A stretch of 64,000 nt of DNA from Sutcliffiella sp. FSL R7-0096 (GTDB lineage Bacteria > Bacillota > Bacilli > Bacillales > Bacillaceae_I). Positions 7,275 through 37,067 of this stretch are shown here, in pieces. The stretch is from positions 3,390,001-3,454,000 of the forward strand of contig NZ_CP152003.1 of the NCBI RefSeq assembly GCF_038595065.1, read 5' to 3'. The notes under the pieces were generated by a model, which was not told the origin of the DNA, ran no database searches, and worked only from the letters and a program-made list of their open reading frames with translations. The position numbers and the translations under genes are program-made. Each line of letters starts with the position of its first letter. Positions within the stretch are counted from its first letter, which is position 1.

Positions 7275-8243
7275 TTATCTACCACTTAGTACCTCTATCC
7301 GGTTCGTCCAAATGTATCCCGAGAAATAATCAGGTATTCTCTCCAGATCCTCTTTCGAATCAAATCCTTCGGAGAAACCTCCATCCCCAGCAACAATAAC
7401 CACCCTTGTATCTACTTTTTCCATACGTTCGTGAAACTTGCCGGACCATCCCCATAGAAATGGGCCAATCTTTTCAGGTACATGAAGTTGTGTTCCTTCA
7501 CATGCTTCAGGAACATAGCCCGTCCATCCAATGGCAAGGTATGGGATCAGGCAACTCTTCATCGATCCTTTGGACATCACTCTCATATCAGGCACCATGT
7601 TTTTTAAGCTAGAGATAGGTTGGTCTCCTCCATACACGGTTAATTGTTCCATGCCATTAACGGTGTTCTTTTCCAGATAGTCCGCTAGCAGCTCCCCCTC
7701 TTTGGGATCATCACTTTTAATGTGGATCAGTAGCTCTTGATTCGGAAATTGTTCCAACACTTCTTTAAGTGTAGGAATGAGTCCTATTCCTTTTCCTCGG
7801 AATGGGTATGTTTTGCCACCATCTGCGGTATAACCATGCCCAACATCCAATTGACGCAGTTCCTCCATGGAATGCTCGCGGGTCACCCCCGCACCGTCTG
7901 TACGGCATTCCAATGTCCAATCATGAAATACGGCAAATTCTCCATCCGTTGTTGGATGAACATCCAATTCTACTATGTCTGCTCCAAGTCGAAACGCCTC
8001 TTCCATGGAAGCGATAGTGTTTTCGATATAGGCATGTTCAGGCTCAAAGATACGTTCTGCGGTGCATGCATCCCGGGTAATATCCTCCATCGTAAACGTT
8101 TGATGCACGCCCCTATGAGCAAGATACTTCGCTTCAACATTCTCTCTTTCCATAAAGAGAGAGGTGTTATTTAAAAACATAAAAACTATCAAAATGATAA
8201 TACCGATCCCAATATACTTGAACGCTTTTTTGATGTTCTTCAA
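7275..8243 (-). CDS. Membrane-anchored glycerophosphodiester phosphodiesterase family protein
   Basis: GDPD enzymes split glycerophosphodiesters into glycerol 3-phosphate and an alcohol. The 322-residue protein has one N-terminal membrane segment (about residues 10-27), then family motifs: AHRG, ENTIASMEEAFRLGADIVELD, and HPTTDGEFAVFHDWTL carrying the catalytic histidine. The domain probably faces outside, where it could act on phospholipid or teichoic acid fragments. The start is TTG at 8243 with GAGAGGG six bases upstream. It is a single gene between two terminators, and B. subtilis does not have it at this location. Confidence 0.87.
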   Translation of the reverse strand: MKNIKKAFKYIGIGIIILIVFMFLNNTSLFMERENVEAKYLAHRGVHQTFTMEDITRDACTAERIFEPEHAYIENTIASMEEAFRLGADIVELDVHPTTDGEFAVFHDWTLECRTDGAGVTREHSMEELRQLDVGHGYTADGGKTYPFRGKGIGLIPTLKEVLEQFPNQELLIHIKSDDPKEGELLADYLEKNTVNGMEQLTVYGGDQPISSLKNMVPDMRVMSKGSMKSCLIPYLAIGWTGYVPEACEGTQLHVPEKIGPFLWGWSGKFHERMEKVDTRVVIVAGDGGFSEGFDSKEDLERIPDYFSGYIWTNRIEVLSGR

Positions 8244-8267
8244 TTTGTCCCTCTCCCATTCAAATAA

Positions 8268-8292
8268 AGCCGCCTCTTTTAAGAGACGGCTC
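8268..8292 (-). terminator. min operon terminator
   Basis: Stem AGCCGTCTC/GAGGCGGCT on the minus strand followed by TTTATTTG, directly after minD. Confidence 0.8.
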
Positions 8293-8302
8293 GATTGAAC
8301 CC

Positions 8303-9103
8303 TTAGCGTACGCCAAAGAATTTTTTTATTTTAAACATAACGCCTTTGTTTTCATCTTCAAGGGATTGCAACGGCACGGATTCACCCAAAATGCGTCTTG
8401 CAATGTTACGATACGCGATGGACGCTTTGCTTGTCGGATCCATGACAATCGGTTCCCCACTGTTAGATGCGCGGATGACACTATCGTCATCTGCAACGAT
8501 ACCAATGATATCGATTGCAAGTATGGATACAATTTCATCTACATCAAGCATCTCGCCGTTCTTTACCATATGGTTTCGAATACGATTGACAACAAGACGA
8601 GGAGGTTGGATGTTTTCCTCTTTCTCGAGCAATCCGATAATACGGTCTGCATCACGTACAGAAGATACTTCAGGTGTTGTGACAACGATGGCTCTGTCAG
8701 CACCGGCAATGGCATTCTGGAAGCCCTGCTCGATACCAGCAGGACAGTCTATGATGATATAATCATAGTCCTGCTTCAGTTCCATCACTAGTTTTTTCAT
8801 TTGATCCGGTTTTACAGCCGACTTATCACTTGTTTGCGCTGCAGGCAAGAGCTTCAGGCATTCGAAGCGTTTATCATTGATCAAGGCCTGATGTGTTTTG
8901 CAACGACCTTCAATGACGTCGACCAGATCATAAATGATACGGTTCTCAAGTCCCATGACAACATCGAGATTTCTTAACCCAATATCTGTATCTATCAAAC
9001 ATACTCTTTTTCCTTGTAATGCAAGAGCCGTTCCTATATTTGCAGAAGTTGTCGTTTTGCCGACTCCACCTTTACCGGAAGTAATTACGATAGCCTCTCC
9101 CAC
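8303..9103 (-). CDS. minD: Septum site-determining ATPase MinD
   Basis: MinD is the membrane-binding ATPase that places the division inhibitor MinC at the poles. The 266-residue protein carries the deviant Walker A SGKGGVGKTT (Lys11 and Lys16), the IDTDIGLRNLD switch region, and the C-terminal amphipathic membrane-targeting helix GVMFKIKKFFGVR. It follows minC with a three-base gap, the usual minCD pair, and ends at a terminator. In Bacillus it works with DivIVA and MinJ rather than MinE; no minE is present here. Confidence 0.98.
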   Translation of the reverse strand: MGEAIVITSGKGGVGKTTTSANIGTALALQGKRVCLIDTDIGLRNLDVVMGLENRIIYDLVDVIEGRCKTHQALINDKRFECLKLLPAAQTSDKSAVKPDQMKKLVMELKQDYDYIIIDCPAGIEQGFQNAIAGADRAIVVTTPEVSSVRDADRIIGLLEKEENIQPPRLVVNRIRNHMVKNGEMLDVDEIVSILAIDIIGIVADDDSVIRASNSGEPIVMDPTSKASIAYRNIARRILGESVPLQSLEDENKGVMFKIKKFFGVR

Positions 9104-9106
9104 TTG

Positions 9107-9793
9107 TTACATTCTCCTTTCAAGCCGTGTTAACATCGGTCTTAGTTGTGAAAGCAATTGTAAGCGGTCTATGACAATTTGTTCTTGATCATCTATATAG
9201 GCGCATTCCATCTCACTGCTTCCTTCTAGTTGCTCACTTAAATCTGGAGCGCGGTTTATTGTGTTATCAATGGAAAGCAATGTAGGCTTCATCAAACTTG
9301 CAGCTATGATAGCATCCTTTTTGCCTTGTAGGCCAGCATAGGCACTTCCCCTCAACGCACCCATAACGAATACATTGCCGCCTGCCTTCACCGTACCTCC
9401 AGGATTGACATCTCCTATCAAGAGGAGATCTCCCTCCACTTCTAGCACCTGCCCTGATCGGATCATCCTTGCAACAGGTAGAATCTCGGATTCTTTTTTC
9501 CACTGGATTGCCTGTTCTTTTGTTACTACATTGCTTTCTATGTCTTCCACAATAAAGTTCTTCTTGCTTCGAATTACATTTCGTAATTTTTCCTGCTGCT
9601 TATTGGTTAAGTAACGATTTCCGACTCTTAGACGTACACCTAAGAGCGGCGCTTCGTCCGGATTGCTATTCGACGTTAATTTTGCTTCTATTTCAGCTAA
9701 AAGCTCTGGAAACGAGCATGTATCATCGAGATGCAGGGTTAAGCCCTCTTTTGTGCCCTTAATGGTTACATACTGTTGTTTTTGTCTATTCAC
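9107..9793 (-). CDS. minC: Septum site-determining protein MinC
   Basis: MinC inhibits FtsZ polymerisation away from midcell and is recruited by MinD. The 228-residue protein has the N-terminal FtsZ-binding domain and the C-terminal beta-helical domain with the signature RSGQVLEVEGDLLLIGDVN and GGNVFVMGALRG. GTG at 9793 is chosen: GAGGTGA lies six bases upstream and the resulting start MNRQKQQYVTIKGTKEGLTL aligns with B. subtilis MinC. An in-frame ATG eleven codons earlier has no comparable ribosome binding site. Confidence 0.96.
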   Translation of the reverse strand: MNRQKQQYVTIKGTKEGLTLHLDDTCSFPELLAEIEAKLTSNSNPDEAPLLGVRLRVGNRYLTNKQQEKLRNVIRSKKNFIVEDIESNVVTKEQAIQWKKESEILPVARMIRSGQVLEVEGDLLLIGDVNPGGTVKAGGNVFVMGALRGSAYAGLQGKKDAIIAASLMKPTLLSIDNTINRAPDLSEQLEGSSEMECAYIDDQEQIVIDRLQLLSQLRPMLTRLERRM

Positions 9794-9893
9794 GACGTTC
9801 ACCTCAACAAGTATATAATTCGACATTGTCCTTCTATTTCCTTTTTCCTATATCCATAAAATAAAAAAAAGATTGCTAGATTTTTTATGTAAT

Positions 9894-9931
9894 GGAAAAG
9901 CCCGTCCCTTTTTGGGGGATGGGGCTTTTCC
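9894..9931 (-). terminator. Hairpin after mreBCD
   Basis: Long stem GGAAAAGCCC...GGGCTTTTCC between mreD and minC. It lacks a strict T run on the minus strand but probably reduces read-through from mreBCD into minCD. Confidence 0.55.
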
Positions 9932-9958
9932 AATAACTTTTAGTTCCCTTGTAACTCC

Positions 9959-10085
9959 GCTTTTGATTTACGCACTAGGCTTCGCTTTCCACGGGGCCCT
10001 TGTGGAGCCTCCTCGGCAAGCCTGCGGGGTCTCCACTAAGCGCTACCTCTCGGAGGAGTCTTCGCCTTGTGCTCCAATCAAAAGC
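9959..10085 (+). repeat. R2 GC-rich palindromic element, copy a
   Basis: About 127 bases bounded by GCTTTTGATT and AATCAAAAGC, with the R2 core CTTCGCTTTCCACGGGG, GCCTCCTCGG, GCGGGGTCTCC and GGAGTCTTCGCC. It lies between mreD and minC next to the hairpin. Together the hairpin and R2a account for the 331-base gap. Confidence 0.8.
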
Positions 10086-10124
10086 TAGAAGACTTACATT
10101 TACAATGATTATTTAAAAAATATC

Positions 10125-10646
10125 TTACAACTCATCCTTTTGTTCGATTGCAAGGCGCTCCATGAAGAGTTTGATTGGAAATAGTAGTATTAATGTGATG
10201 ATGGCATTAAATACTAGTGTAGGTACGACTCGCATGTATAAAAATTCGGAATGGACCAGTTGTGTTGTCCCAATCAAGGAATGGATTCCAAAGACAAGGT
10301 GCTCGGTGATGGTAATGGATAGTAGCACCAATAAAAAGGATATCAAGTAATTTGTATTCACAAATCTCAAGATACCGGAAACAATATAGACGGACACCCC
10401 GAATGCAAATAGATAGACACCCAGGATTTCCGTATAAACTATATCATAGAGAAAGCCGAACAGCATGGCACAGATCAGGCCCACATATGGGCTTGTATAG
10501 ATGGCACAGAGGACGATGACAATCAACATAAACCTAGGTACGATAATCCAGTCTTCCCGGATTTCGTGAAGGCCAAAGAAATCGACGCTCATGCTTTCGA
10601 GTATAAATAAGAAAAGAAGCAGGGCTGGTAAGATATATTTTCTCAC
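10125..10646 (-). CDS. mreD: Rod shape-determining membrane protein MreD
   Basis: MreD is an integral membrane partner of MreC in the elongasome that directs lateral wall synthesis. The 173-residue protein is almost entirely hydrophobic, with about five to six membrane segments and the family-typical stretch FGFLYDIVYTEILGVYLFAF. It overlaps the end of mreC by 4 bases, giving the conserved mreBCD order. Confidence 0.95.
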   Translation of the reverse strand: MRKYILPALLLFLFILESMSVDFFGLHEIREDWIIVPRFMLIVIVLCAIYTSPYVGLICAMLFGFLYDIVYTEILGVYLFAFGVSVYIVSGILRFVNTNYLISFLLVLLSITITEHLVFGIHSLIGTTQLVHSEFLYMRVVPTLVFNAIITLILLFPIKLFMERLAIEQKDEL

Positions 10647-11530
10647 TCAGAGCCCCCCTCTTCGGCAGCTTCTTCTGTTGGTTCCTCTTCTCCTGATATG
10701 AGTGTTCGTTTTACAATCATAACCTGAGTGATGTTATAGAAGTCAGCGGCTGGTTTGACATAGGCCATCTGCGTCAATCCATACTCATCTGCCACAACCT
10801 CCGTCACTTCACCAATCATCAGACCTTCCGGGAATACACCGCCCAACCCGGAGGATAGTACGGTTTCCCCTTCCTTCACTTCCGCTTGGTGAGGGATACG
10901 CTTTAACAGAAGGGCGCCTTTTTCTTCATCATAGCCTTCGATCAACCCAAATATGTCTTCTTCTCCTTGTATGTACGCAGAGATGCGGTTCTTTGGATCC
11001 AAGGAACTAAGGAGTTGCACAGTGGAAGTAAAGGCATTGGCATGTTTGACCTTACCGATCAGTCCACCCGAGGTGACGACCGCCATGTCCTTTTCCACAC
11101 CGTTTTGCTTCCCTTTATTCACCGTGATTTGCTCGACCCATTGATCAGGGTTTCTGCCAATGACGGTGGCAGGTTTTGGTTCATAATCACGAAGCGAATC
11201 GAGTTCCCCGATCACTTCACGAAACTCGTCGTTTTCTTTTTCTAGCTTTTGGACCTTTGTTTCTAAAAGAGCATATTCTTCCAGTCTAGCACGCAGCAAT
11301 TTATTCTCTTCATACGTATCTTTTAAATATCCTACATTATCAAAGAAGCCCGCGACAAAATGTGCGGGCCTATAAAAGATAGATTGGACAAAGCCTGTCG
11401 AGTCCTTTACGAACTGTTCAGGCCATGTCAAATCGTCCCGTTCTTTTAAAGAGAAACCAATCAATGCCACCAGAAAAATTAAGCTCACCAACAAAATAAT
11501 CAACCTTTTATTGAGGAAAAATTGTGGCAT
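10643..11530 (-). CDS. mreC: Rod shape-determining protein MreC
   Basis: MreC links the MreB filaments to wall synthases outside the membrane. The 295-residue protein has one N-terminal membrane segment (LIILLVSLIFLVALIGF), a coiled coil of roughly residues 65-110 (YEENKLLRARLEEYALLETK), and the beta-barrel domain with VTSGGLIGKV and VLSSGLGGVFPEGLMIGEV. The C-terminus is a short acidic tail. Second gene of mreBCD, 14 bases after mreB. Confidence 0.96.
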   Translation of the reverse strand: MPQFFLNKRLIILLVSLIFLVALIGFSLKERDDLTWPEQFVKDSTGFVQSIFYRPAHFVAGFFDNVGYLKDTYEENKLLRARLEEYALLETKVQKLEKENDEFREVIGELDSLRDYEPKPATVIGRNPDQWVEQITVNKGKQNGVEKDMAVVTSGGLIGKVKHANAFTSTVQLLSSLDPKNRISAYIQGEEDIFGLIEGYDEEKGALLLKRIPHQAEVKEGETVLSSGLGGVFPEGLMIGEVTEVVADEYGLTQMAYVKPAADFYNITQVMIVKRTLISGEEEPTEEAAEEGGSE

Positions 11531-11544
11531 GACTTAACACCTAC

Positions 11545-12585
<1,041 letters not shown>

Positions 12586-13452: not shown

Positions 13453-13504
13453 TTTTCTTCCTCCCCTTTTAGTGGATGGAGGGTCATGCCACGACCGTTC
13501 TATT

Positions 13505-13690
13505 AGGCTCTTTTCTCAAAGATTGTTACTATTTTCTTGTAAAAAGTCGGCAATTGGACTTTTTACTAATTACGTACTCTAAAAGGTGCAAGCTTGTTAT
13601 TACGTACAGCAGGGAAAAGAGCACGACAATAAGGAAAATAACGATTGATATATCCATACGAAACAGCAACTAAGTTTACGAAAAGAGCCT
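13505..13690 (-). repeat. R1 element copy 2 (MITE-like, 6-bp target duplication)
   Basis: 186 bases bounded by AGGCTCTTTTC and GAAAAGAGCCT, flanked directly on both sides by TCTATT. The internal sequence GTAAAAAGTCGGCAATTGGACTTTTTAC forms a second small hairpin. The element is the reverse orientation of the 30.6-kb copy and the same length. It fills the gap between radC and maf. Confidence 0.9.
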
Positions 13691-13691
13691 T

Positions 13692-14249
13692 CTATTGAAA
13701 ACTTTTCAATTCACGAATCGTTCTTGAAAGCGGAAGCCCCACAATCGAAAAGTAGTCTCCTTTGATCTCTTTTACAAAAAGCGCACCGACTTCCTGAATC
13801 CCGTAAGAACCGGCTTTGTCCATCGGTTCTCCTGATTGGATGTAAAACTCGATATCCTCATCGGTCAGATCCCAAAATGTGACGGAGGTTTTTTCATAAA
13901 AGGTCACCTCTTTTTCTTCACTCAAGATGGCAACTCCACTTATGACATAGTGTGTATTGCCGCTCAGTGTTCGGAGGGTGGCTCTGGCCTCGTTTTCACT
14001 TTCCGGTTTGCCGAGAACCTTGTCACCAAGGACAACGATGGTATCGGATCCGATGATAACGGAGTCTCTATTTTTCATAAAGACATCTTGGGCTTTCTGA
14101 TAAGCCAAGGTAGTCGCAATTTCTTCTGGTGTCAGGGATGGGTCGAAGGTTTCTTCGATGTTACTCACCTTCACGGTAAAAGGGAGGTGTACTTGTTGGA
14201 GAAGTTCCTTTCTTCTGGGGGATCCTGAGGCTAAAATAAGAGGTTTCAT
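13692..14249 (-). CDS. maf: Maf family nucleotide pyrophosphatase
   Basis: Maf proteins hydrolyse non-canonical nucleoside triphosphates (dTTP/UTP and methylated forms) to the monophosphate; B. subtilis Maf is linked to septum formation and competence arrest. The 185-residue protein has LILASGSPRRKELLQQ at the start, SNIEETFD, and the GSDTIVVLGDKVLGKP motif with the catalytic Asp. It lies between spoIIB and radC as in B. subtilis. The R1 element copy 2 ends one base before its stop region. Confidence 0.95.
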   Translation of the reverse strand: MKPLILASGSPRRKELLQQVHLPFTVKVSNIEETFDPSLTPEEIATTLAYQKAQDVFMKNRDSVIIGSDTIVVLGDKVLGKPESENEARATLRTLSGNTHYVISGVAILSEEKEVTFYEKTSVTFWDLTDEDIEFYIQSGEPMDKAGSYGIQEVGALFVKEIKGDYFSIVGLPLSRTIRELKSFQ

Positions 14250-27442: not shown

Positions 27443-29224
27443 TTATGATGTCTTCCGATACTCGGCTACCTTATTCCTTCCAGCCTGCTTCGCCCCGACA
27501 TACATCGCACGGTCCGCATGGCGTATGAGGTCAAGTGTGTCTTCCGCATCATCCGGAGCGGTCGCAAATCCGATACTTGCTGTTACTTTTACAAGCTGGG
27601 AACCTTGCGCATCGCGTATGTGTTGCTTGAGTGGGAATGATCTAGTGGCTAGATGCACCCGTATGCGCTCAGCCAGTTCAAGACATTGTCCCCGCTCCAC
27701 ATTAGGAAGAAGGATGACGAACTCTTCCCCACCATATCTTGCAACCGTCCCCTTATTACCAACAATTGCTGTCAATCGATCGGCTACCTGCATTAGGATC
27801 TCATTTCCACTCTGGTGGCCATATATATCATTGATTCTTTTGAAATGATCAAGATCCAGCATGATGAGAGAAAGAGACTTGGATTGTCCATTGTTAAGCT
27901 TTTCATACTCATTATCAAGGACACTTTCAAAAAAGCGATAATTATATAGTTTTGTAAGGGCACAGCGTTCGCTTTTTCTTTTTGTTTCTTGATAGTGGCG
28001 TGCTTTTTCCATCGCCACCCCAAAATAGGAGCAAAGTATATCGACAATCATCAATTGGGATTTATCGTATGTGCGCTTGGATGAGCTTGCAAGCAATACG
28101 AGCCCCTCAATTTTATGATTACGGATGACTGGGACGCACATCACACTTTGCATGGAAGCGGGAAGATGTGTCTTGGAAATATGCTTCCATTCTTTCTTCG
28201 TCAAATAACAGACGCTTTTTCCACGTTTTAACACATAGGCCAATAGTTCTTCTTCGTCTGTGAGAAGGATGGTATTGGGCTCCACGCTGTTTTCCTTGTC
28301 CATCACACGGAGCACTTTCATGATCTTATCCCCGTTCACGTCAATAATTGCTGCATAATCTACCTTGAAGAGAGTGGAGATTTTCTCTAGGAACACATCC
28401 AATACCCCTATTGTATCAAGTCTTTCCGTTAATTGATGGCCGACATCTGCAGCTTGTTGGAGATGAACATTGACCTTTTGACTGGAATGATAGAGTTGCA
28501 GAATCAAGGTTAAGATGACGAAGGGCAAACCGACATATAACAAGGCAACTGCTCCCACTTGCTCATAGAGCGTGTAGAGGATTAACCCCACCGGTAAGAC
28601 CATGATGCTTGTAACGGCATCCCACTTCGTATCAGGAGTGATGAATTTACTTCTTCGCTCATATATAGATAATTGAATAAAATATAAATATACTGTATTA
28701 AGGGTGAAATAGACTAATTCATGTGCAAGTATCGGAGTAAGGACGCCGATATTCCATAACCTTGTATCTCCAGGCGTTCCACCTAAAGCATAAAAAACAA
28801 AACCAGCTACCAATGATATGCTAGAAAACATCAGCATATTAATGGGAATGCGCACCAAGTTCTGCCTGTTCATCCGCATATACACCATTAAGGCAAGGAC
28901 CGAGATGAGTGTCACAATCATCTCGATAAATAGACCAAAGGACAGGAGGGCTGCCAGCGAAACTCCTTGCGCCAAAAATAGCGGTACCTCTCCTACCACT
29001 ATCGGAATCAGGGCAAGTATAATAGCCAAAGCTATAAACCCGACAAGGTGCCAAATTGGCAAATCTTTTAACACTACAGGTGAAAGCTGATATCCTAACC
29101 ATAAAAAGATGGGGACCAACACGATAAAGCTTGTCCAAATCACCATTTCCTTTTGGCGATTCACTCCCTGAGCTACCAAACTAACCCCTCCCTTCTCTAT
29201 CCATTTTTCGACGTGCTTTCTCAA
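27443..29224 (-). CDS. Membrane GAF-GGDEF diguanylate cyclase
   Basis: A 593-residue protein predicted to make cyclic di-GMP. About the first 240 residues are a multi-pass membrane sensor part (around eight hydrophobic segments), then a GAF domain (about 265-400) and a GGDEF domain with LTKLYNYRFFESVLDNE, LDLDHFKRINDIYGHQ and the active-site motif ARYGGEEFVILLP. The inhibitory RxxD site before GGEEF is absent, suggesting no product inhibition. Start uncertain: the longest form uses TTG at 29224, but the strong GGGAGGGG favours TTG at 29179. A cyclic di-GMP link to PilB (MshEN) is an inference. Confidence 0.9.
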   Translation of the reverse strand: MRKHVEKWIEKGGVSLVAQGVNRQKEMVIWTSFIVLVPIFLWLGYQLSPVVLKDLPIWHLVGFIALAIILALIPIVVGEVPLFLAQGVSLAALLSFGLFIEMIVTLISVLALMVYMRMNRQNLVRIPINMLMFSSISLVAGFVFYALGGTPGDTRLWNIGVLTPILAHELVYFTLNTVYLYFIQLSIYERRSKFITPDTKWDAVTSIMVLPVGLILYTLYEQVGAVALLYVGLPFVILTLILQLYHSSQKVNVHLQQAADVGHQLTERLDTIGVLDVFLEKISTLFKVDYAAIIDVNGDKIMKVLRVMDKENSVEPNTILLTDEEELLAYVLKRGKSVCYLTKKEWKHISKTHLPASMQSVMCVPVIRNHKIEGLVLLASSSKRTYDKSQLMIVDILCSYFGVAMEKARHYQETKRKSERCALTKLYNYRFFESVLDNEYEKLNNGQSKSLSLIMLDLDHFKRINDIYGHQSGNEILMQVADRLTAIVGNKGTVARYGGEEFVILLPNVERGQCLELAERIRVHLATRSFPLKQHIRDAQGSQLVKVTASIGFATAPDDAEDTLDLIRHADRAMYVGAKQAGRNKVAEYRKTS

Positions 29225-29283: not shown

Positions 29284-30579
29284 TTATCTCTCTTCATCTT
29301 TTCGTGTGAGATAAGACCTAGTTTCTGAAATGAAGTAAAGGGAACCTGTAACAAGCAATACGGATTCCTCATTAAGCCTTGATACAGCAGCATCGAGAGC
29401 GATTTCCCACACTCTCTCTAATTGTTTTTTTGGATGATGGCTTATATGATAAATATCTTCTGCCCGGGCAGCTCGAGGAAAATGAAAGGAAGTAAAAATA
29501 ATTTCAGATGCCACCTTTTCCAACTTTTTCACCATGGATTCAATCGGTTTATCTTTAAGCGCACTGAAAAGAACGATTACTGTCCTATTTGAATAGCATC
29601 TCTCGACAGAACGCACCAATGCATCCACCGCCTCGTCATTATGTGCCCCATCCATGATGATGAGTGGGTTATGGCTAACCACTTCAAATCTTCCTGGGTG
29701 GGTCGCTTTCAATATCCCCCGCTTTAATATTTTTTCCTCATATCGAGCTAATCCCTTTTCCGTCAACGTGAGGTATGCCTTTATTGCAAGTGAAGCGTTA
29801 GCCACCTGATGTTCTCCCTGCATCGAAATCCTTATATCACTTATCAACTTATCCTTAGCATGGTACTTAAAGGTCTCTCCTTCCTGCTCCATATCTACTA
29901 GTGAATAAGAAAAATCCTCTTCCATAAAACTGATGGGACTTCCGTTTGTCTTTGCTTCTGCCCTGATGACTTCTTTCGCCTCTGCCTTTTGTTCCCCACT
30001 AATAACAGGAACCCCTTTTTTGATGATGCCCGCTTTATGAGCGGCTATTTCTTTAATGGTTGTCCCCAAGAAGCCGATATGGTCATAACCTACGTTAGTT
30101 ATAATGGACAGGACCGGCTTCATCACATTAGTGGAATCCTCCCTACCACCGAGGCCAACCTCGATCAAGGCAAAATCCACCTTCTTCATGCAAGCAAAAT
30201 AATAAAATGCCGTGGCAGTCTGCAACTCAAACTCGGTCAATCCAACTTCATCAAGACCCTTTTCATTAAATAATTTCATTACTTCCATTAGTTCTGAATC
30301 TGTTATGTACTCACCATTCACAGAAATCTGGTCATTTATATACTCATAGGAAGGGGAATGAAACGTCCCGACATTATGGCCTGCCTCAAGTAGCATGCTC
30401 TCTAGAAAGCGCAACGTGGATCCCTTGCCATTCGTCCCTCCAATGTGAACTATTTTTATTTGATCCTGAGGATTGCCTACCTTCTCCAAAAAGCGGAGCA
30501 TTCGCTCCAATCCCAGGTTTATCTCGCTTTTCATCGTGAAACTAATTTCCTTTTGAAGCTCCTTCAATGATGTAAACAT
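29284..30579 (-). CDS. folC: Folylpolyglutamate synthase / dihydrofolate synthase
   Basis: FolC adds glutamate to dihydropteroate and then gamma-linked glutamates to folate. The 431-residue Mur-ligase-fold protein has the P-loop GGTNGKGSTLRFLE, IEVGLGGREDSTNV, the GYDHIGFLGTTIKEIAAHKAG stretch, THPGRFEVV, and the C-terminal DGAHN motif. ATG 30579 is chosen because AAGGAG lies seven bases before it. It follows the comC/pil locus as folC does in B. subtilis, but the usual valS is 4 kb away because a repeat and a three-gene operon intervene. Confidence 0.95.
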   Translation of the reverse strand: MFTSLKELQKEISFTMKSEINLGLERMLRFLEKVGNPQDQIKIVHIGGTNGKGSTLRFLESMLLEAGHNVGTFHSPSYEYINDQISVNGEYITDSELMEVMKLFNEKGLDEVGLTEFELQTATAFYYFACMKKVDFALIEVGLGGREDSTNVMKPVLSIITNVGYDHIGFLGTTIKEIAAHKAGIIKKGVPVISGEQKAEAKEVIRAEAKTNGSPISFMEEDFSYSLVDMEQEGETFKYHAKDKLISDIRISMQGEHQVANASLAIKAYLTLTEKGLARYEEKILKRGILKATHPGRFEVVSHNPLIIMDGAHNDEAVDALVRSVERCYSNRTVIVLFSALKDKPIESMVKKLEKVASEIIFTSFHFPRAARAEDIYHISHHPKKQLERVWEIALDAAVSRLNEESVLLVTGSLYFISETRSYLTRKDEER

Positions 30580-30639
30580 ATTGCAACTCCTTTTCAACCG
30601 ACAATTCCTTAGGTAAAATAATGGATGTTACTCATTAAT

Positions 30640-30825
30640 AGGCTCTTTTCGTAAACTTTGTTGCTTTTACGAATTTTTAAACCGTCTGTTATCTTCCCTA
30701 CTGTCGTGCTCTTTTCCCTGCTGTACTGAAGAAACTACTTGCACCTTATAGAGTCTGATAACAGTAAAAAGTCCGATTGCCTACTTTTTACAAGTAAATA
30801 GCAACAATCTTTGAGAAAAGAGCCT
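30640..30825 (+). repeat. R1 element copy 3 (MITE-like, 6-bp target duplication)
   Basis: 186 bases bounded by AGGCTCTTTTC and GAAAAGAGCCT, flanked directly by ATTAAT on both sides. The ends match over about 29 bases with a few mismatches (AGGCTCTTTTCGTAAACTTT versus AGGCTCTTTTCTCAAAGATT). It sits between divergent folC and the ATP-grasp operon, so promoters of either gene may lie within it. Confidence 0.92.
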
Positions 30826-30873
30826 ATTAATATTGTTATAGCAAACTTTATCATAGAAAACGAGGCCTTTACC

Positions 30874-31773
30874 ATGTCAAAATACCTTTGCTGGATTATT
30901 TATAACGGAAACCTTCCTGAAGAGAAATTTATCGAGATGGCTACTTGGATCAATAATGTGGCAATAGAGCATTCCATCGCCAGCAAACTCGTGAAAAACA
31001 ACCGATTGATACCCGCCATTATCGACGGAAAGCCGGACCTAGTGCGTTCTGAGAGGGAACCCCTTCCGGATTTTATCATTTTTTTTGATAAGGATGTCGT
31101 TCTGGCAAAACATCTTGAAATGATGGGCATACCTGTTTACAACAGCGCTGCTAGCATCGAGATTTGTGATAATAAATCACTTACATATCAAGCACTTGCC
31201 GGAAAAAACATTCCAATGCCTAAAACACTATTGGCTCCCTTCGTTTTTTATGCCCACGATGACTATCAACCATTTTATCGTGCAAGTGAAGCCCTGGGCT
31301 TTCCACTGGTTGTGAAGGAAGCCTATGGTTCTTTCGGCATACAAGTATACCTGATTCATACTATGGAAGAACTTCTCGAGAAAGTGAAGGAAATAGGTAA
31401 CCGCCCGTTTCTGCTTCAGGAATACATCGCATCAAGCAAAGGAAAGGATATTCGCTTGAATGTCGTGGGTGATCAAGTTGTTGCATCCGTTATGCGAATA
31501 TCAGAGACAGATTTCCGGGCCAATGTCGGCAATGGTGGTAGGATGATCAAGTATGAACCTACCGCATATGAAAAAGAAATAGCGCTCAAAAGCACGCAGC
31601 TTGTGGGTGCGGACTTTGCTGGAGTGGATCTGTTGATTGGAGAAGACGGCTCGCCGCTTGTTTGTGAAATTAACTCCAACGCCCACTTCAAAGCCGTCCA
31701 CAACTATACCGGGATCAATGTCGCAACCTATATTGTTCCCCATATTATAAAAAAATGGAAAGAGACGAAATGA
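30874..31773 (+). CDS. RimK-like ATP-grasp ligase 1
   Basis: A 299-residue ATP-grasp protein. Members join a carboxylate to an amine through an acyl-phosphate and ADP. Visible family parts: AASIEICDNKSLTYQALAG, FPLVVKEAYGSFGIQVYLI (ATP-binding lysine and loop), RPFLLQEYIASSKGKDIRLN, DFRANVGNGG, and the metal-binding end VCEINSNAHFK. This is closest to the RimK group that attaches amino acids, often glutamate. ATG 30874 with GAGG is chosen; an earlier in-frame TTG lies inside the R1 element. Its stop overlaps the next start (ATGATGA). Substrate unknown. Confidence 0.85.
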   Translation: MSKYLCWIIYNGNLPEEKFIEMATWINNVAIEHSIASKLVKNNRLIPAIIDGKPDLVRSEREPLPDFIIFFDKDVVLAKHLEMMGIPVYNSAASIEICDNKSLTYQALAGKNIPMPKTLLAPFVFYAHDDYQPFYRASEALGFPLVVKEAYGSFGIQVYLIHTMEELLEKVKEIGNRPFLLQEYIASSKGKDIRLNVVGDQVVASVMRISETDFRANVGNGGRMIKYEPTAYEKEIALKSTQLVGADFAGVDLLIGEDGSPLVCEINSNAHFKAVHNYTGINVATYIVPHIIKKWKETK

Positions 31774-32660
31774 TGAGAAGAAAAGGCTGGCTTATATACG
31801 AAGAAGAACACTCCAAAAAGAATGCATCCTTTATCCAATGGTTTATGGAAGAATCCGAAGCATTAAATATAGAGTTGACGTTCCTGCTACAGTCCCAAAT
31901 ATCCTTTGGTGTGCGAGATGGCAAGCTGGAAATAAGGCTTGATGGACTAACCGCTGCCTCTCCCGACTTTGTCATCATGCGAAATGTTACCCCTTTGTTC
32001 AGTAAGCATTTGGAACGCATGACCATTCCATGCTTCAATTCCTACCAGGTGGCTTCCATTTGTAATGACAAGGCAAAAACCCATCAATATTTAGCAGGTA
32101 AAGGAATCCCGATGCTAGATACTTATTTTGTCACAGCGCATGAACTTACGCATGAAAACCTTCCCGTCCCTTACCCATTTGTGGTGAAGTCGGCAGCAGG
32201 CAGAGGTGGAGTCGAGGTGTACTTAATAGAAAATGAGGAGCAGTTGGCAACTATCCGGCAGGAGCTTGCCTCCCTCCCAGTCGTGATCCAACCACTTGCC
32301 GCTACACCAGGAAAGGACCTGCGTGTTTATGTTCTCGGCAAACAAATTGTTGCAGCTGTCCTTCGTACCAATGAAAATAGCTTCAAAGCGAATTTCTCTC
32401 TTGGTGGCAAAGCTGAGGTTTATACGTTGAATGAAGTAGAGCAACAATTGGTAGAAAAAATCATAGCACAATTTGATTTCGCTCTCGTTGGTGTGGACTT
32501 CTTATTTGATAGTGATGGACAGCTCCTCTTCAATGAAATCGAGGATGTCGTCGGCTGTCGGATGCTGTGTCAGACAACCGATATCAATATCGTAAAGCTT
32601 TACTTGGAATTTGTTTTGGGGAAGCTTGAGGAAAGCGAGGCAAACGATGAAGTTTTATAA
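31770..32660 (+). CDS. RimK-like ATP-grasp ligase 2
   Basis: A 296-residue ATP-grasp protein, a diverged paralogue of the gene before it. It has QVASICNDKAKTHQYLAGKG, PFVVKSAAGRGGVEVYLIEN, VIQPLAATPGKDLRVYVLG, SFKANFSLGG, and a different metal-binding end, FNEIEDVVGCRML, where the last Asn of the usual EIN motif is replaced by Glu. The two enzymes therefore probably add different groups or use different acceptors. Start ATG 31770 overlaps the stop of the first gene by 4 bases; its own end overlaps the Mur ligase gene by 14 bases. Substrate unknown. Confidence 0.83.
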   Translation: MMRRKGWLIYEEEHSKKNASFIQWFMEESEALNIELTFLLQSQISFGVRDGKLEIRLDGLTAASPDFVIMRNVTPLFSKHLERMTIPCFNSYQVASICNDKAKTHQYLAGKGIPMLDTYFVTAHELTHENLPVPYPFVVKSAAGRGGVEVYLIENEEQLATIRQELASLPVVIQPLAATPGKDLRVYVLGKQIVAAVLRTNENSFKANFSLGGKAEVYTLNEVEQQLVEKIIAQFDFALVGVDFLFDSDGQLLFNEIEDVVGCRMLCQTTDINIVKLYLEFVLGKLEESEANDEVL

Positions 32661-33981
32661 CATGCGCGAAGCCCTTTCCTACGTATATGCTTCCTTTCTA
32701 AAAGCAAAGCCCCATCAAAAGGAACTAGATGATGCAATCGTCCGCTCCCCACACTTAACGAAGGAGCTGTTGACCAGTTTAAATCTAATCTTCCCAAAAG
32801 AGAAGGTCATCCTTGTGACAGGGAGTAAAGGTAAGGGTTCCACATCCAGAATGATTGCCGCCATCCTGCGTCAAAAGGGGTACAATGTCGGCCTCTATAC
32901 CTCTCCTCACCTTGTAGAATATAACGAACGGATCCGGGTGAACGGGAAAGCCATTTCAGATGAAGCCTTTCTTCAGCATCTTAACAATCAGGTTCCGGCT
33001 ATAGATAAGATACTGGCTTCGATTGCTACCCCTCAACAATACCTTGGTCCAACAGGTATTCTGCTATCTATTGCACTTGCCCATTTCAAGGAGCAAGAGA
33101 CAGATATCAATGTCATTGAAATCGGCCGTGGCGGTACTTATGACGATACAAATGTTTTGGAAAACAAATGGGCTGTCATTTCGAAAGTGATGGAAGAACA
33201 TGTAGGTTACCTGGGAAATTCGCTTGAGGAGATTGTCGGCCATAAAGCCGGGATTGTAAAGGAATGCACGGACCATGTGATGGTTGGAAGTCAAAGTGAA
33301 CCTGTTAAGCAAATGTTGGGGAGAAAGTTGGGAAGCAATGTTTCTGTTTTTGGAGTAGATTATTCTCCTTCCATCAAGCATGCAAGTTTGAAAGGAAGCT
33401 TATTTTCCTTACATACTAAGTTGAGCACATATGAAGATATTTTCCTTCCGTTGCTAGGCTCGTTTCAAGTGGAAAATGCCGCACTCGCTATTCAGACATG
33501 TGAAAAGGTAATTGGTAATCAGCTCACAGATGAGTTATTGAATGATTGTTTCCGAGAGTTGAGATGGCCGGGCAGATTGGAAGTGGTGGAAGAACATCCG
33601 ACCGTCGTGCTGGACGGATCCATCAATCGTGTTTCAGCTGCTTATCTAAAAGAAGTACTCCCACTAGTGGACTCGACGAAAGTTGCCACCATCATAGCGG
33701 TCCCGGAAAATAAGGATTATGAAGGTGTCATAGAGGTTTGCAGTGAGTTCTCGGATGTTTTGGTGGTAACCACGCCTGATAACTCCCACAAGACATTTCC
33801 ATCCGATGCACTTGCCGTTGCCCGTCGATATCATGCAGGGGCGATGGAGGTTGGCTTGCTTTCAGAAGCTGTTCCGCTGGTGCGAAGCTTAGAACCTACT
33901 CTCATTTTTATAGTTGGCACTCAGTCGATGATTGGAAGTGCCAAGGAGATTTGGAGGGATTCCTTAATGGATATTGGATAG
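32647..33981 (+). CDS. FolC-like Mur ligase family protein
   Basis: A 444-residue paralogue of FolC. It has the P-loop LVTGSKGKGSTSRMIAAILR, YTSPHLVEYNERIRVNG, VIEIGRGGTYDDTNVL, a VGYLGNSLEEIVGHKAGI region, and RWPGRLEVV. The FolC motif DGAHN is changed to DGSIN, losing the histidine, and the first 60 residues are unlike FolC. It is probably an acyl-phosphate-forming amide ligase with a substrate other than folate. Start ATG 32647 with GCGAGG is chosen; a longer in-frame start lies inside the previous gene. Third gene of the ATP-grasp operon, overlapping its neighbour by 14 bases. Confidence 0.85.
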   Translation: MKFYNMREALSYVYASFLKAKPHQKELDDAIVRSPHLTKELLTSLNLIFPKEKVILVTGSKGKGSTSRMIAAILRQKGYNVGLYTSPHLVEYNERIRVNGKAISDEAFLQHLNNQVPAIDKILASIATPQQYLGPTGILLSIALAHFKEQETDINVIEIGRGGTYDDTNVLENKWAVISKVMEEHVGYLGNSLEEIVGHKAGIVKECTDHVMVGSQSEPVKQMLGRKLGSNVSVFGVDYSPSIKHASLKGSLFSLHTKLSTYEDIFLPLLGSFQVENAALAIQTCEKVIGNQLTDELLNDCFRELRWPGRLEVVEEHPTVVLDGSINRVSAAYLKEVLPLVDSTKVATIIAVPENKDYEGVIEVCSEFSDVLVVTTPDNSHKTFPSDALAVARRYHAGAMEVGLLSEAVPLVRSLEPTLIFIVGTQSMIGSAKEIWRDSLMDIG

Positions 33982-34372: not shown

Positions 34373-37021
34373 TTACCCCTTCAACTCATCAATTCGAGCT
34401 TGAACAGCATCACGCTTTTCAACATAATCTTTTTCTTTCGCTTTTTCTTCTTCAATGACATTCGCAGGTGCCTTCGCAATGAATCCTTGGTTGGAAAGCT
34501 TCTTCTGAACGCGCTCCACTTCCTTATCAAGCTTCGCAAGCTCCTTGTTTAGACGGGAGATCTCTTCGTCAATGTTGATCAGCCCTTGCAGAGGAAGAAT
34601 TAATTCCGCACCAGTTACCACTGCTGTCATCGCCTTTTCGCCACCGTCCAATGCAACATCTGTTCCGATCAACAGCTCGCTTGGGTTACAGAAGCGTTCT
34701 AGGTAAGAACGGTTTCTTTCAAGTTTCCCTTCAATCTCAGAAGTTTTTGCTTTCACAAGCAATTTAACCTGTTTGCTCATTGGCGTGTTCACTTCTGCAC
34801 GAACGTTACGAACGCTGCGGATGATGTCCACTAGTAAACGCATATCCGATGCCGCTTCCTTGTCTGTCAATTCATCGCGAACTTCCGGCCATTTTGCAAG
34901 CGTGATGGACTCGCCTTCGTGAGGAAGCTGCTGCCAGATTTCCTCTGTGATGAATGGCATAAATGGATGCAACAGGCGCATTGTGTTATCCAATACGTAA
35001 GCCAAAATGGAGCGTGTTGTCTTTTTCGCCGCTTCATCTTCGCTGTACAATGGAATTTTCGCCATTTCGATATACCAGTCACAGAAATCATCCCAGATGA
35101 AGTTGTAAAGGGCACGGCCCACTTCACCGAACTCATATTTCTCAGCAAGCTTGGTCACTGTCTCAATTGTTTCGTTCAAACGAGTCAGGATCCACTTGTC
35201 TGCAACGGACTTCTCGCCGCTCAAATCGATATCCTCGAACTTCATGTCGCCCATGTTCATCAAGGCAAAACGGGATGCGTTCCAGATCTTGTTCGCAAAG
35301 TTCCAAGTCGACTCCACCTTTTCATAGCTGAAACGTAGGTCCTGACCTGGTGAGCTTCCTGTAGATAGGAAGTAACGTAGGGAATCCGCTCCGTACTTTT
35401 CGATAACTTCCATTGGATCCACACCATTACCAAGGGACTTACTCATTTTACGACCTTGCTCGTCACGAACCAGCCCATGGATGAGAACATCTTTAAATGG
35501 ACGCTCGCCAGTGAATTCAAGACCTTGGAATATCATACGGGATACCCAGAAGAAAATGATATCATACCCTGTTACTAAGGTACTTGTTGGATAGTAACGT
35601 TGGTAGTCCAGTGATTCTGTTTCTGGCCAGCCCATTGTAGAGAACGGCCATAATGCAGAACTGAACCATGTATCAAGTACGTCTGTATCCTGCTCCCAAT
35701 TTTCGATATCTTCCGGCGGGTTATGATCAACATGGATTTCTCCGGTTTCTTTGTTATACCAAGCCGGAATTCGGTGGCCCCACCATAGCTGACGGGAGAT
35801 ACACCAGTCGCGGATATTTTCCATCCAACGCATGTAAGTGTTCTCAAAGCGGTTTGGTACAAAGTTAACTTTGTCTTCTTGAGACTGAAGGTCAACTGCT
35901 TTGTCTGCAAGTGGTTGCATTTTAACGAACCATTGTGTGGAAAGATACGGCTCAACCACCGCTCCGCTTCGCTCACTGTGACCAACAGAATGCATGTGCT
36001 CTTCAATTTTGAAAAGGACGCCACTTTCTTGCAAGTCTTTTACAAGCTGCTTACGGCATTCAAAACGATCCATACCATTGTATTTGCCAGCTTTTTCGTT
36101 CATACTGCCGTCCTCGTGCATAACAAGGATGCGCTCTAGGTTATGACGGTTTCCGATTTCAAAGTCGTTCGGGTCATGGGCTGGGGTGATTTTCACGGCA
36201 CCGGAACCGAATTCCATGTCTACATAATCATCGGCAACAATTGGAATTTCACGGCCTGTGATAGGAAGTGTTACCATTTTTCCAATTAAGTGCTTGTAGC
36301 GCTCGTCTTCCGGATGAACCGCAACCGCTGTGTCTCCAAGCATTGTTTCAGGACGTGTTGTCGCAATTTCAATGGAACCGGACCCATCTGTTAGAGGGTA
36401 TCTCATATGATAGAAGGCACCTTGAACATCTTGGTGAATTACCTCGATATCAGAAAGAGCCGTCTTTGTTGCAGGATCCCAGTTGATGATGTATTCGCCA
36501 CGGTAGATTAAACCTTTTTTATAAAGCGTTACGAACACTTCATTAACTGCTTTGGATAGCCCTTCATCCAAAGTGAAGCGTTCGCGGCTGTAATCCAGGC
36601 CAAGACCTAGCTTTGACCATTGCTGGCGGATATGTTGCGCATACTCGTCTTTCCACTTCCACGCTTCTTCCATGAACTTTTCACGGCCAAGTTCATAACG
36701 ATTGATTCCTTGGTTACGAAGTTTCTCATCAACTTTAGCTTGAGTCGCGATTCCTGCGTGGTCCATTCCAGGTAACCATAGAACATCAAAGCCTTGCATG
36801 CGTTTCATGCGCGTGATGATGTCTTGTAGGGTGGTATCCCATGCGTGACCAAGGTGCAGGCGCCCTGTAACGTTTGGTGGCGGGATAACGATTGTGTATG
36901 GTGTTTTGTCATGGTCGTTCGTCGCTTCAAAAAAGCGGCCATCCAGCCAGTATTGATAACGATTTTTTTCGATTGTTTGTGGATCGTATTTAGTGGGAAG
37001 GTTTACTTCTTTCATTTCCAT
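34373..37021 (-). CDS. valS: Valyl-tRNA synthetase
   Basis: Class I aminoacyl-tRNA synthetase charging tRNA-Val. The 882-residue protein has the HIGH-type motif [16 protein letters not shown] near residue 45-60, the CP1 editing domain in the middle, KMSKS in [14 protein letters not shown] around residue 525, the anticodon-binding region, and a C-terminal coiled coil (last 65 residues, Lys/Glu-rich) typical of ValRS. ATG 37021 is chosen: AGGAGG precedes it by seven bases and [14 protein letters not shown] matches B. subtilis. It is regulated by a T-box leader, with an R2 repeat between leader and gene. Confidence 0.98.
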
Positions 37022-37067
37022 CCTGATTCCTCCTATTCTCTTATAGAAAATGGTTCTGTATAGCACC

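Follow-up and report, generated by a model that had tools for sequence, protein, structure and literature searches.

Two linked RimK-type ATP-grasp ligases of Bacillales and their FolC-like, membrane-protein and hydrolase partners: a possible amino-acid tailing module

A stretch of 64,000 nucleotides from Sutcliffiella sp. FSL R7-0096 (positions 3,390,001 to 3,454,000 of contig NZ_CP152003.1; the window in the following), a strain whose genome is one contig of 4.9 Mb and 99.99% complete, carries between folC and valS an operon of three genes, here called A, B and C, that encode two RimK-type ATP-grasp ligases and a FolC-like Mur ligase (Table 1). A and B form an old pair that is found in many genera of Bacillales, C joins this pair in the family of the window, and in a number of relatives the genes of a putative membrane protein (D) and of a putative hydrolase (E) precede A. 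We propose, with a confidence that stands about midway between belief and doubt, that A, B and C act in the cytosol as ATP-dependent amide ligases and belong to one module which builds an amino-acid tail and which in its complete form includes D and E. Ligases of the ATP-grasp and Mur types produce the tails of cofactors, the peptides of the cell wall and marks on proteins; a product of A-B was not found in the literature searched, though B occurs in roughly one in five of the Bacillales genomes sampled (85 of 397). Three new facts are the most useful ones: A-B as the core, D and E as its partners, and C repeatedly paired with ATP-grasp ligases. By the comparison of genomes, a three-gene orphan operon becomes a defined five-gene module that is open to genetic test.

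A first, sequence-only reading had described the three genes as an operon, and the coordinates agree: A and B overlap by 4 bases (ATGA, shared with the stop codon of A) and B and C by 14 bases, at a place where Bacillus subtilis presumably has nothing between folC and valS. That the arrangement goes beyond chance is indicated by its recurrence, as the order A-B-C between folC and valS is present in all 14 B-positive genomes of the window's family, its own included, while four of the 18 family genomes (G003, 80% complete, and G004, G017 and G002) were without a B match at E<=1e-20. It is also indicated by the ratios of nonsynonymous to synonymous substitution (dN/dS), which in comparison with the relatives G011 and G006, respectively, amount to 0.130 and 0.111 for A, 0.175 and 0.150 for B and 0.123 and 0.128 for C, next to 0.195 and 0.151 for folC. 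Such low values denote maintained proteins under purifying selection.

Beyond the family, a profile search of 397 Bacillales genomes with a threshold of E<=1e-60 retrieved B from 85 genomes and 26 of 135 genera, and all 85 B regions were fetched and their genes assigned with profiles. A is present in 79 of these regions and in 77 directly precedes B in the same orientation, at a distance of at most 120 bases, a co-occurrence across genera which supports the conserved amide-ligase pathway that had been suggested from the window. In 68 of the 85 genomes no more than 700 bases separate the locus from folC, and in 52 of them the distance to valS is, moreover, at most 1500 bases. At the remaining 17 loci, away from folC, the neighbours differ by genus in the six that were inspected (G136, G114, G108, G113, G037 and G082), and A-B therefore gives the impression of a self-contained unit. 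Together with B, the locus holds C in 14, D in 11 and E in 12 of the 85 genomes, with the E of G389 interrupted by a stop codon. In a sample of the phylum, B was matched in four of 398 genomes at E<=1e-40, its own genome included; the three distant B-like matches in other classes (L158-L160) have A as their best match among the queries (33-34% identity), and of the genes of the other queries one GGDEF gene alone was seen around them, so that they were interpreted as RimK-type enzymes of another kind.

The folds assigned earlier are in accord with Pfam and NCBIfam. Both ligases match PF08443 (A with 1e-40, B with 1.2e-25), and against the RimK subfamily model TIGR00768, with its cut-off of 143.4 bits, A scores above (197.6) and B just below (142.5). 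The solved structures nearest to A and B by sequence are RimK, ArgX and LysX, which are ligases of glutamate or aminoadipate. Closest to B by sequence is ArgX (3vpb), while the predicted structure of B (six sequences, pLDDT 78) comes closest to RimK with RpsF (5zk6, TM-score 0.80) and reaches a TM-score of 0.72 with ArgX in complex with LysW (3vpb). The models of named function rank for A in the order LysX, MptN and S6 ligase; among the models listed, no equivalog cut-off is reached by A, B or C, with 101.2 (A) and 50.9 bits (B) of the 331 required for S6 ligase (NF007764), and with 117.7 of 350 for MptN and 77.3 of 300 bits for CofF in the case of A.

The metal motifs noted at the outset are conserved. 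EIN of A is kept in 12 of 12 aligned orthologues and NEIEDVVG of B is invariant in 13 of 13, with EIE at the place where the ATP-grasp metal site E-x-N has the Glu and Asn of the last strand; in a profile alignment, ArgX shows NELNDV at this position. B as a degenerate enzyme is not supported, as, besides the invariant motif, the columns K145, K187, D248 and E261, which we take to be catalytic, are invariant as well. A and B are thus both expected to be active, each with a metal site of its own, and, since these motifs differ and are each conserved, they probably make different additions, in line with the original proposal of distinct roles. The amino acid that either ligase adds would have to be read from the family.

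C belongs to the Mur ligases (Mur_ligase_M, 1.4e-16) and scores above the cut-off of the FolC subfamily model TIGR01499 (244.1 versus 162.65 bits). Nevertheless, an alignment of 16 C proteins (the window's family, G238 and G167) with 68 FolC proteins from the B regions, two low-scoring of 70 having been excluded, displays ten positions which are fixed (at least 90%) in both groups and yet different. Among the changed residues are the His of DGAHN (64 of 68 FolC), the Asn of GTNGKGS (68 of 68) and the Glu of TEFE (68 of 68), replaced in all 16 C proteins by Ile, Lys and Gly respectively, at sites that we take to serve nucleotide, glutamate and pteroate in FolC structures. In six further C proteins outside the alignment a pattern check, restricted to the second of these sites, recovered GSKGKGS in five and left one unmatched. 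As these motif residues are changed and an intact folC resides next door, folate is an unlikely acceptor of C and another acceptor is most likely. The folate or cofactor tail that had been named as the finding that would overturn the first proposal has consequently become less likely for C and persists as a rival explanation for A-B. FolC2 of Lactobacillus reuteri was rejected as a relative, since its description places it in COG1478 (PMC5061717).

C also occurs in other gene company. At a threshold of E<=1e-110, a C-type ligase was detected in 21 of the 385 Bacillales genomes searched (G005 also possesses C yet is not among these matches). Thirteen of the 21 are the A-B-C operons of the window's family; in the other eight, none of them among the B-positive genomes, C stands apart from A-B. 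The gene order E-D'-C without A-B, with D' as a version of D of 362-369 amino acids, is found in G238 and G167. An RimK-domain ATP-grasp protein of another subfamily (F; PF08443 with 9.4e-8 to 8.7e-10) is encoded convergently beside C in G238, G022 and G132. C is located between valS and folC in G086, where a PGA_cap protein (6.2e-81) follows folC, and in G024 no such partner was seen within five genes of C. In total, C lies beside an RimK-domain ATP-grasp ligase in 16 of the 21 genomes and in two unlike arrangements, so that a shared pathway is better supported than by the window alone. In G069 (L248) and G299 (L251), C is arranged in tandem with a second FolC-like ligase that carries GSCGKGS and in G069 is 27% identical to the FolC of the window, possibly another amide-ligase pathway.

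The sequence-only reading had found no scaffold gene adjacent to the operon, which is correct for the window and does not extend to its relatives. D (614-622 amino acids) and E (about 218 amino acids from the likely start) lie between folC and A in five of the 13 B-positive genomes of the genus, the window's own counted, among them S. horikoshii DSM 8719 (locus L037) with D, E, A, B and C, and likewise in the sister-genus genome G001. D contains a Cdc48-N-like double-psi barrel according to PF02359 (2.8e-6 and 2e-7, both below the curated cut-off), and its profile matches double-psi-barrel structures (best 2.2e-5). In a simple hydropathy scan, which marks residues 47-65 as well, it has a hydrophobic C-terminal stretch (residues 561-605) of the length of a membrane hairpin. 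E is characterized by the motifs SAPH, DDANYD and DLHIM, and the FGase domain (PF05013) was matched by ten of 18 E members at E<=1, with a best value of 2e-8 and two shown above the cut-off; as this is the only recurrent Pfam match, E does not qualify as an aspartic protease of the retropepsin type (RimB/RloA). D and E share one gene cluster in 13 of the 15 D-positive genomes, and E homologues occur in 32 of the 397 Bacillales genomes, 12 of the 32 inside an A-B cluster.

Decay of D and E is observed in G013, where fragments of both are situated directly before A (L045, 8440-8921), as pieces with 74-95% DNA identity and with in-frame stops in the protein-level matches. Since this genome keeps fragments of both genes at that place, D-E appears ancestral at the locus. 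The remnants represent gene loss in progress; the same search recovered no remains of D or E in the window or in any of six further relatives that lack D-E. With respect to the substrate of E, a distant homologue in G301 resides in a block with PgsB (547.7 bits, cut-off 222.7), PgsC (154.3, cut-off 96.45) and the gamma-glutamyltransferase ggt (368.6, cut-off 357.85), and another one in G140 in a block with PgsB (547.3 bits), both of the type for poly-gamma-glutamate (gamma-PGA). An N-formylglutamate amidohydrolase is one of the closest structural neighbours of the known gamma-PGA hydrolases PghL and PghP (PMC6506827), and together these observations suggest that E cuts glutamyl amides.

E is also paired with another large protein, D2 (715-728 amino acids; L109 of G045, 7322-10169, and L108 of G017, 9242-12038), which has two hydrophobic C-terminal segments and a CorA-like end (PADLOC, 6.6e-8 and 1.5e-9), and in G045 D2-E fills the gap between valS and folC. 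At L111 and L118, E homologues are found among genes sized like those of oligopeptide ABC transporters. A plasmid search retrieved, at the limits used, one partial archaeal match for D and none for C, E and D'. A protein of 360 amino acids with the layout of D' is encoded on the Halobacterium hubeiense plasmid pSTJ001 (L253, 8434-9516), combines a Cdc48-N barrel (PF02359, 8e-19) with a hydrophobic C-terminal stretch and adjoins a PD-T7-4 match (2.7e-74) near an AAA ATPase.

In the mechanism that we propose, A and B would form acyl-phosphates on the carboxylate of an acceptor and attach a single amino acid or a few, one after the other; the residue added would most likely be glutamate, in alpha linkage as with RimK and MptN. 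Linked peptide ligases often catalyse successive ligations, according to the accessible text of one account (PMC4431377). In lineages that possess C, this enzyme would lengthen or cap the chain by an addition at the gamma-carboxyl, as FolC makes it, with an acceptor other than folate. Where the module is complete (D-E-A-B or D-E-A-B-C), residues would be removed by E as an FGase-type metallo-amidohydrolase, and D, by its double-psi barrel and C-terminal membrane hairpin, would hold or sense the product with its tail at the membrane. The genome of the window has the ligases and lacks D and E. Stepwise amide ligation, the kind of activity envisaged in the first reading, is thus retained, and its scope was too narrow in that D and E were not included. 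A far-reaching version, which we put forward tentatively and regard as rather doubtful, is a Gram-positive tailing system across Bacillales, a reversible polyglutamylation-like mark or a carrier pathway, in which the ligases would build the tail on a membrane-associated acceptor, the metallo-amidohydrolase would trim it and the membrane protein with its Cdc48-N-type barrel would read or carry it.

Several observations weigh against the tailing module. At the B locus, C is missing in 71, D in 74 and E in 73 of the 85 genomes, and B is without A in six (G159, G044, G145, G117, G195 and G170). A-B in most genomes therefore does not need C, D and E at that place, and these may be accessories with another job. 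The trio as a natural unit, implied by the first reading, does not hold up either, given this frequent absence of C and its separation from A-B in eight of 21 genomes. As to D and E, the single-sequence model of D is unusable (mean pLDDT 38), the E query itself has no Pfam match and the E profile no significant match in the PDB (best 0.075, chance-like). The connection to gamma-PGA is through two distant E homologues, 27-29% identical to the E of the D-E-A-B loci, and A, B and C were not found in these two blocks. As no equivalog cut-off is reached, glutamate is an extrapolation from the family; ribosomal protein S6 of the window's genome ends with KKEEK and not with Glu, and in that genome LysW was not found at E<=1 and PgsB not above its cut-off. 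To these are added the prevalent vicinity of folC and, for the fold of D, a hint at conflict systems given by the PD-T7-4 match on the Halobacterium plasmid.

On best reading, the tailing module would be a ligase/hydrolase/membrane system comparable to RimK-RimB, Rlo and MyfA/MyfB and built from other parts, in a combination which was not met in the known systems considered or in the literature searched. The operon is not described in the titles and abstract beginnings listed in searches of open-licence literature, and a 2009 survey of amidoligase neighbourhoods (Iyer and colleagues) may list some of its instances. As far as the available sections of the respective publications go, RimK-RimB(-RimA) of Pseudomonas likewise unites an RimK-fold ligase and a glutamate-removing enzyme in one operon (PMC10092738, PMC11957791), whereas here two ligases and a Mur ligase occur together with an FGase-type hydrolase instead of a retropepsin, a membrane protein is added and the S6 of the window's genome lacks the Glu end. 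RloA-RloB-RloC of Pseudomonas aeruginosa combines, in the text accessible, a cytosolic ATP-grasp protein, a hydrolase and a membrane protein in one operon; it differs by a transglutaminase-like seven-helix membrane protein and a secreted protease, which belong to families other than those of D and E (PMC12239564). In methylofuran biosynthesis, the two ATP-grasp ligases MyfA and MyfB likely act successively to provide a coenzyme with a glutamate tail, but MyfB is MptN-like, while A misses the MptN cut-off, and no Mur ligase is named for Myf in the excerpts consulted (PMC8141765).

Three further systems are related by their folds. C has the fold and the subfamily score of FolC and differs from it by the absence of the near-invariant His, Asn and Glu and by its location mostly beside ATP-grasp ligases, in a genome that has its own folC. 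The LysX/ArgX carrier ligases resemble the present ones in that ArgX is the nearest solved sequence to B; a LysW-type carrier pathway was rejected owing to the missing LysW, for which the model used was above its cut-off in three of 14 control genomes. Cyanophycin synthetase unites the ATP-grasp and Mur-ligase folds in one chain, which here are distributed over separate genes that score 36.1 (A), 32.3 (B) and 41.3 bits (C) against a cut-off of 850 bits.

Among the alternatives to the tailing module, a folate or pterin tail, with A and B adding amino acids to FolC-made folylpolyglutamate as MptN and CofF add alpha-glutamate, is unlikely in our estimation though not to be neglected. It would account for the 68 loci close to folC as well as for G243, G087 and G389, in which the block is inverted and folC lies downstream on the same strand at a distance of 22-47 bases, and it would agree with the second rank of MptN among the models of A and with G159 (L162), where two adjacent folC genes stand beside B in the absence of A. 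However, the order folC-valS is itself conserved, so that the adjacency of A/B to folC can be inheritance; no folate enzyme was recognised by eye at the six inspected loci away from folC, MptN remains well below its cut-off for A, and C has lost the three residues near-invariant in FolC.

Escherichia coli RimK extends a C-terminal Glu. An RimK-like protein modification, in which A and/or B glutamylate a protein (S6, or conceivably D or a coat protein), is improbable, although RimK is the closest structure to B, S6 ligase ranks third among the models of A, D would be a possible substrate where it is present and ysxE, a spore-coat gene, occurs in 41 of the 85 regions. S6 was rejected as substrate, as its KKEEK tail does not fit, and both ligases stay far below the S6-ligase cut-off; D is missing from most B loci, and ysxE is part of the valS region and therefore need not concern A-B.

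We give little credence to a secreted gamma-PGA-like polymer or a small peptide natural product, to which the two E homologues within gamma-PGA blocks and the PGA_cap protein after folC beside C in G086 would point. Canonical gamma-PGA synthesis was rejected, since the best PgsB score in the own genome is 24.2 of 222.7 bits with TIGR04012, a model above its cut-off in one of 14 control genomes. No exporter or PgsC-like gene was seen beside A-B-C within the window, and the pair keeps a single location across many families, whereas a biosynthetic cluster would be patchy. A conflict or defence module, with D as membrane effector and with ligases and hydrolase making and removing a signal, is very improbable and was rejected, despite the PD-T7-4 neighbour of the D-like plasmid protein and the CorA-like end of D2 as alternative partner of E, because no PADLOC match was obtained with those A, B, C, D and E proteins that were scanned, the loci are mostly syntenic and a search of 50,697 phage records for D gave nothing at E<=1e-5.

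Table 1. Position of the operon, its flanking genes and a repeat element within the window
Feature	Position	Strand	Remarks
Gene A, RimK-type ATP-grasp ligase, 299 aa, metal motif EINSNAH	30874..31773	+	Start ATG; Pfam/NCBIfam
Gene B, RimK-type ATP-grasp ligase, 296 aa, metal motif NEIEDVVG	31770..32660	+	ATG 31770
Gene C, FolC-like Mur ligase, 444 aa, GSKGKGS and DGSIN	32647..33981	+	ATG 32647
folC, ordinary folylpolyglutamate synthase, divergent from A	29284..30579 (from ATG)	-	TIGR01499, 382.8 bits
valS, convergent with C	34373..37066	-	Named from translation, without family model
Repeat element of about 199 bases with terminal inverted repeats of about 37 bases	30632..30830	.	Between folC and A

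The closest named record found for C is from Sutcliffiella horikoshii strain biET1 (88% identity; very near records may be excluded). A GGDEF protein is encoded adjacent to folC (window 27443-29224) and has a homologue in 45 of the 85 B regions; Pseudomonas RimK has been tied to cyclic di-GMP in the material available from one study (PMC10092738). The gap of 295 bases between folC and A is occupied mostly by the repeat element, whose 3' edge lies 43 bases ahead of the ATG of A and which was not seen in the folC-A gap of the relatives G011 and G006. The element resembles a miniature inverted-repeat transposable element (MITE) and has at least 46 matches in its own genome (40 of 194 candidates scored), at least 42 of which, the window copy counted, extend beyond the short terminal repeats. 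A second copy is located in the window at 13501-13698.

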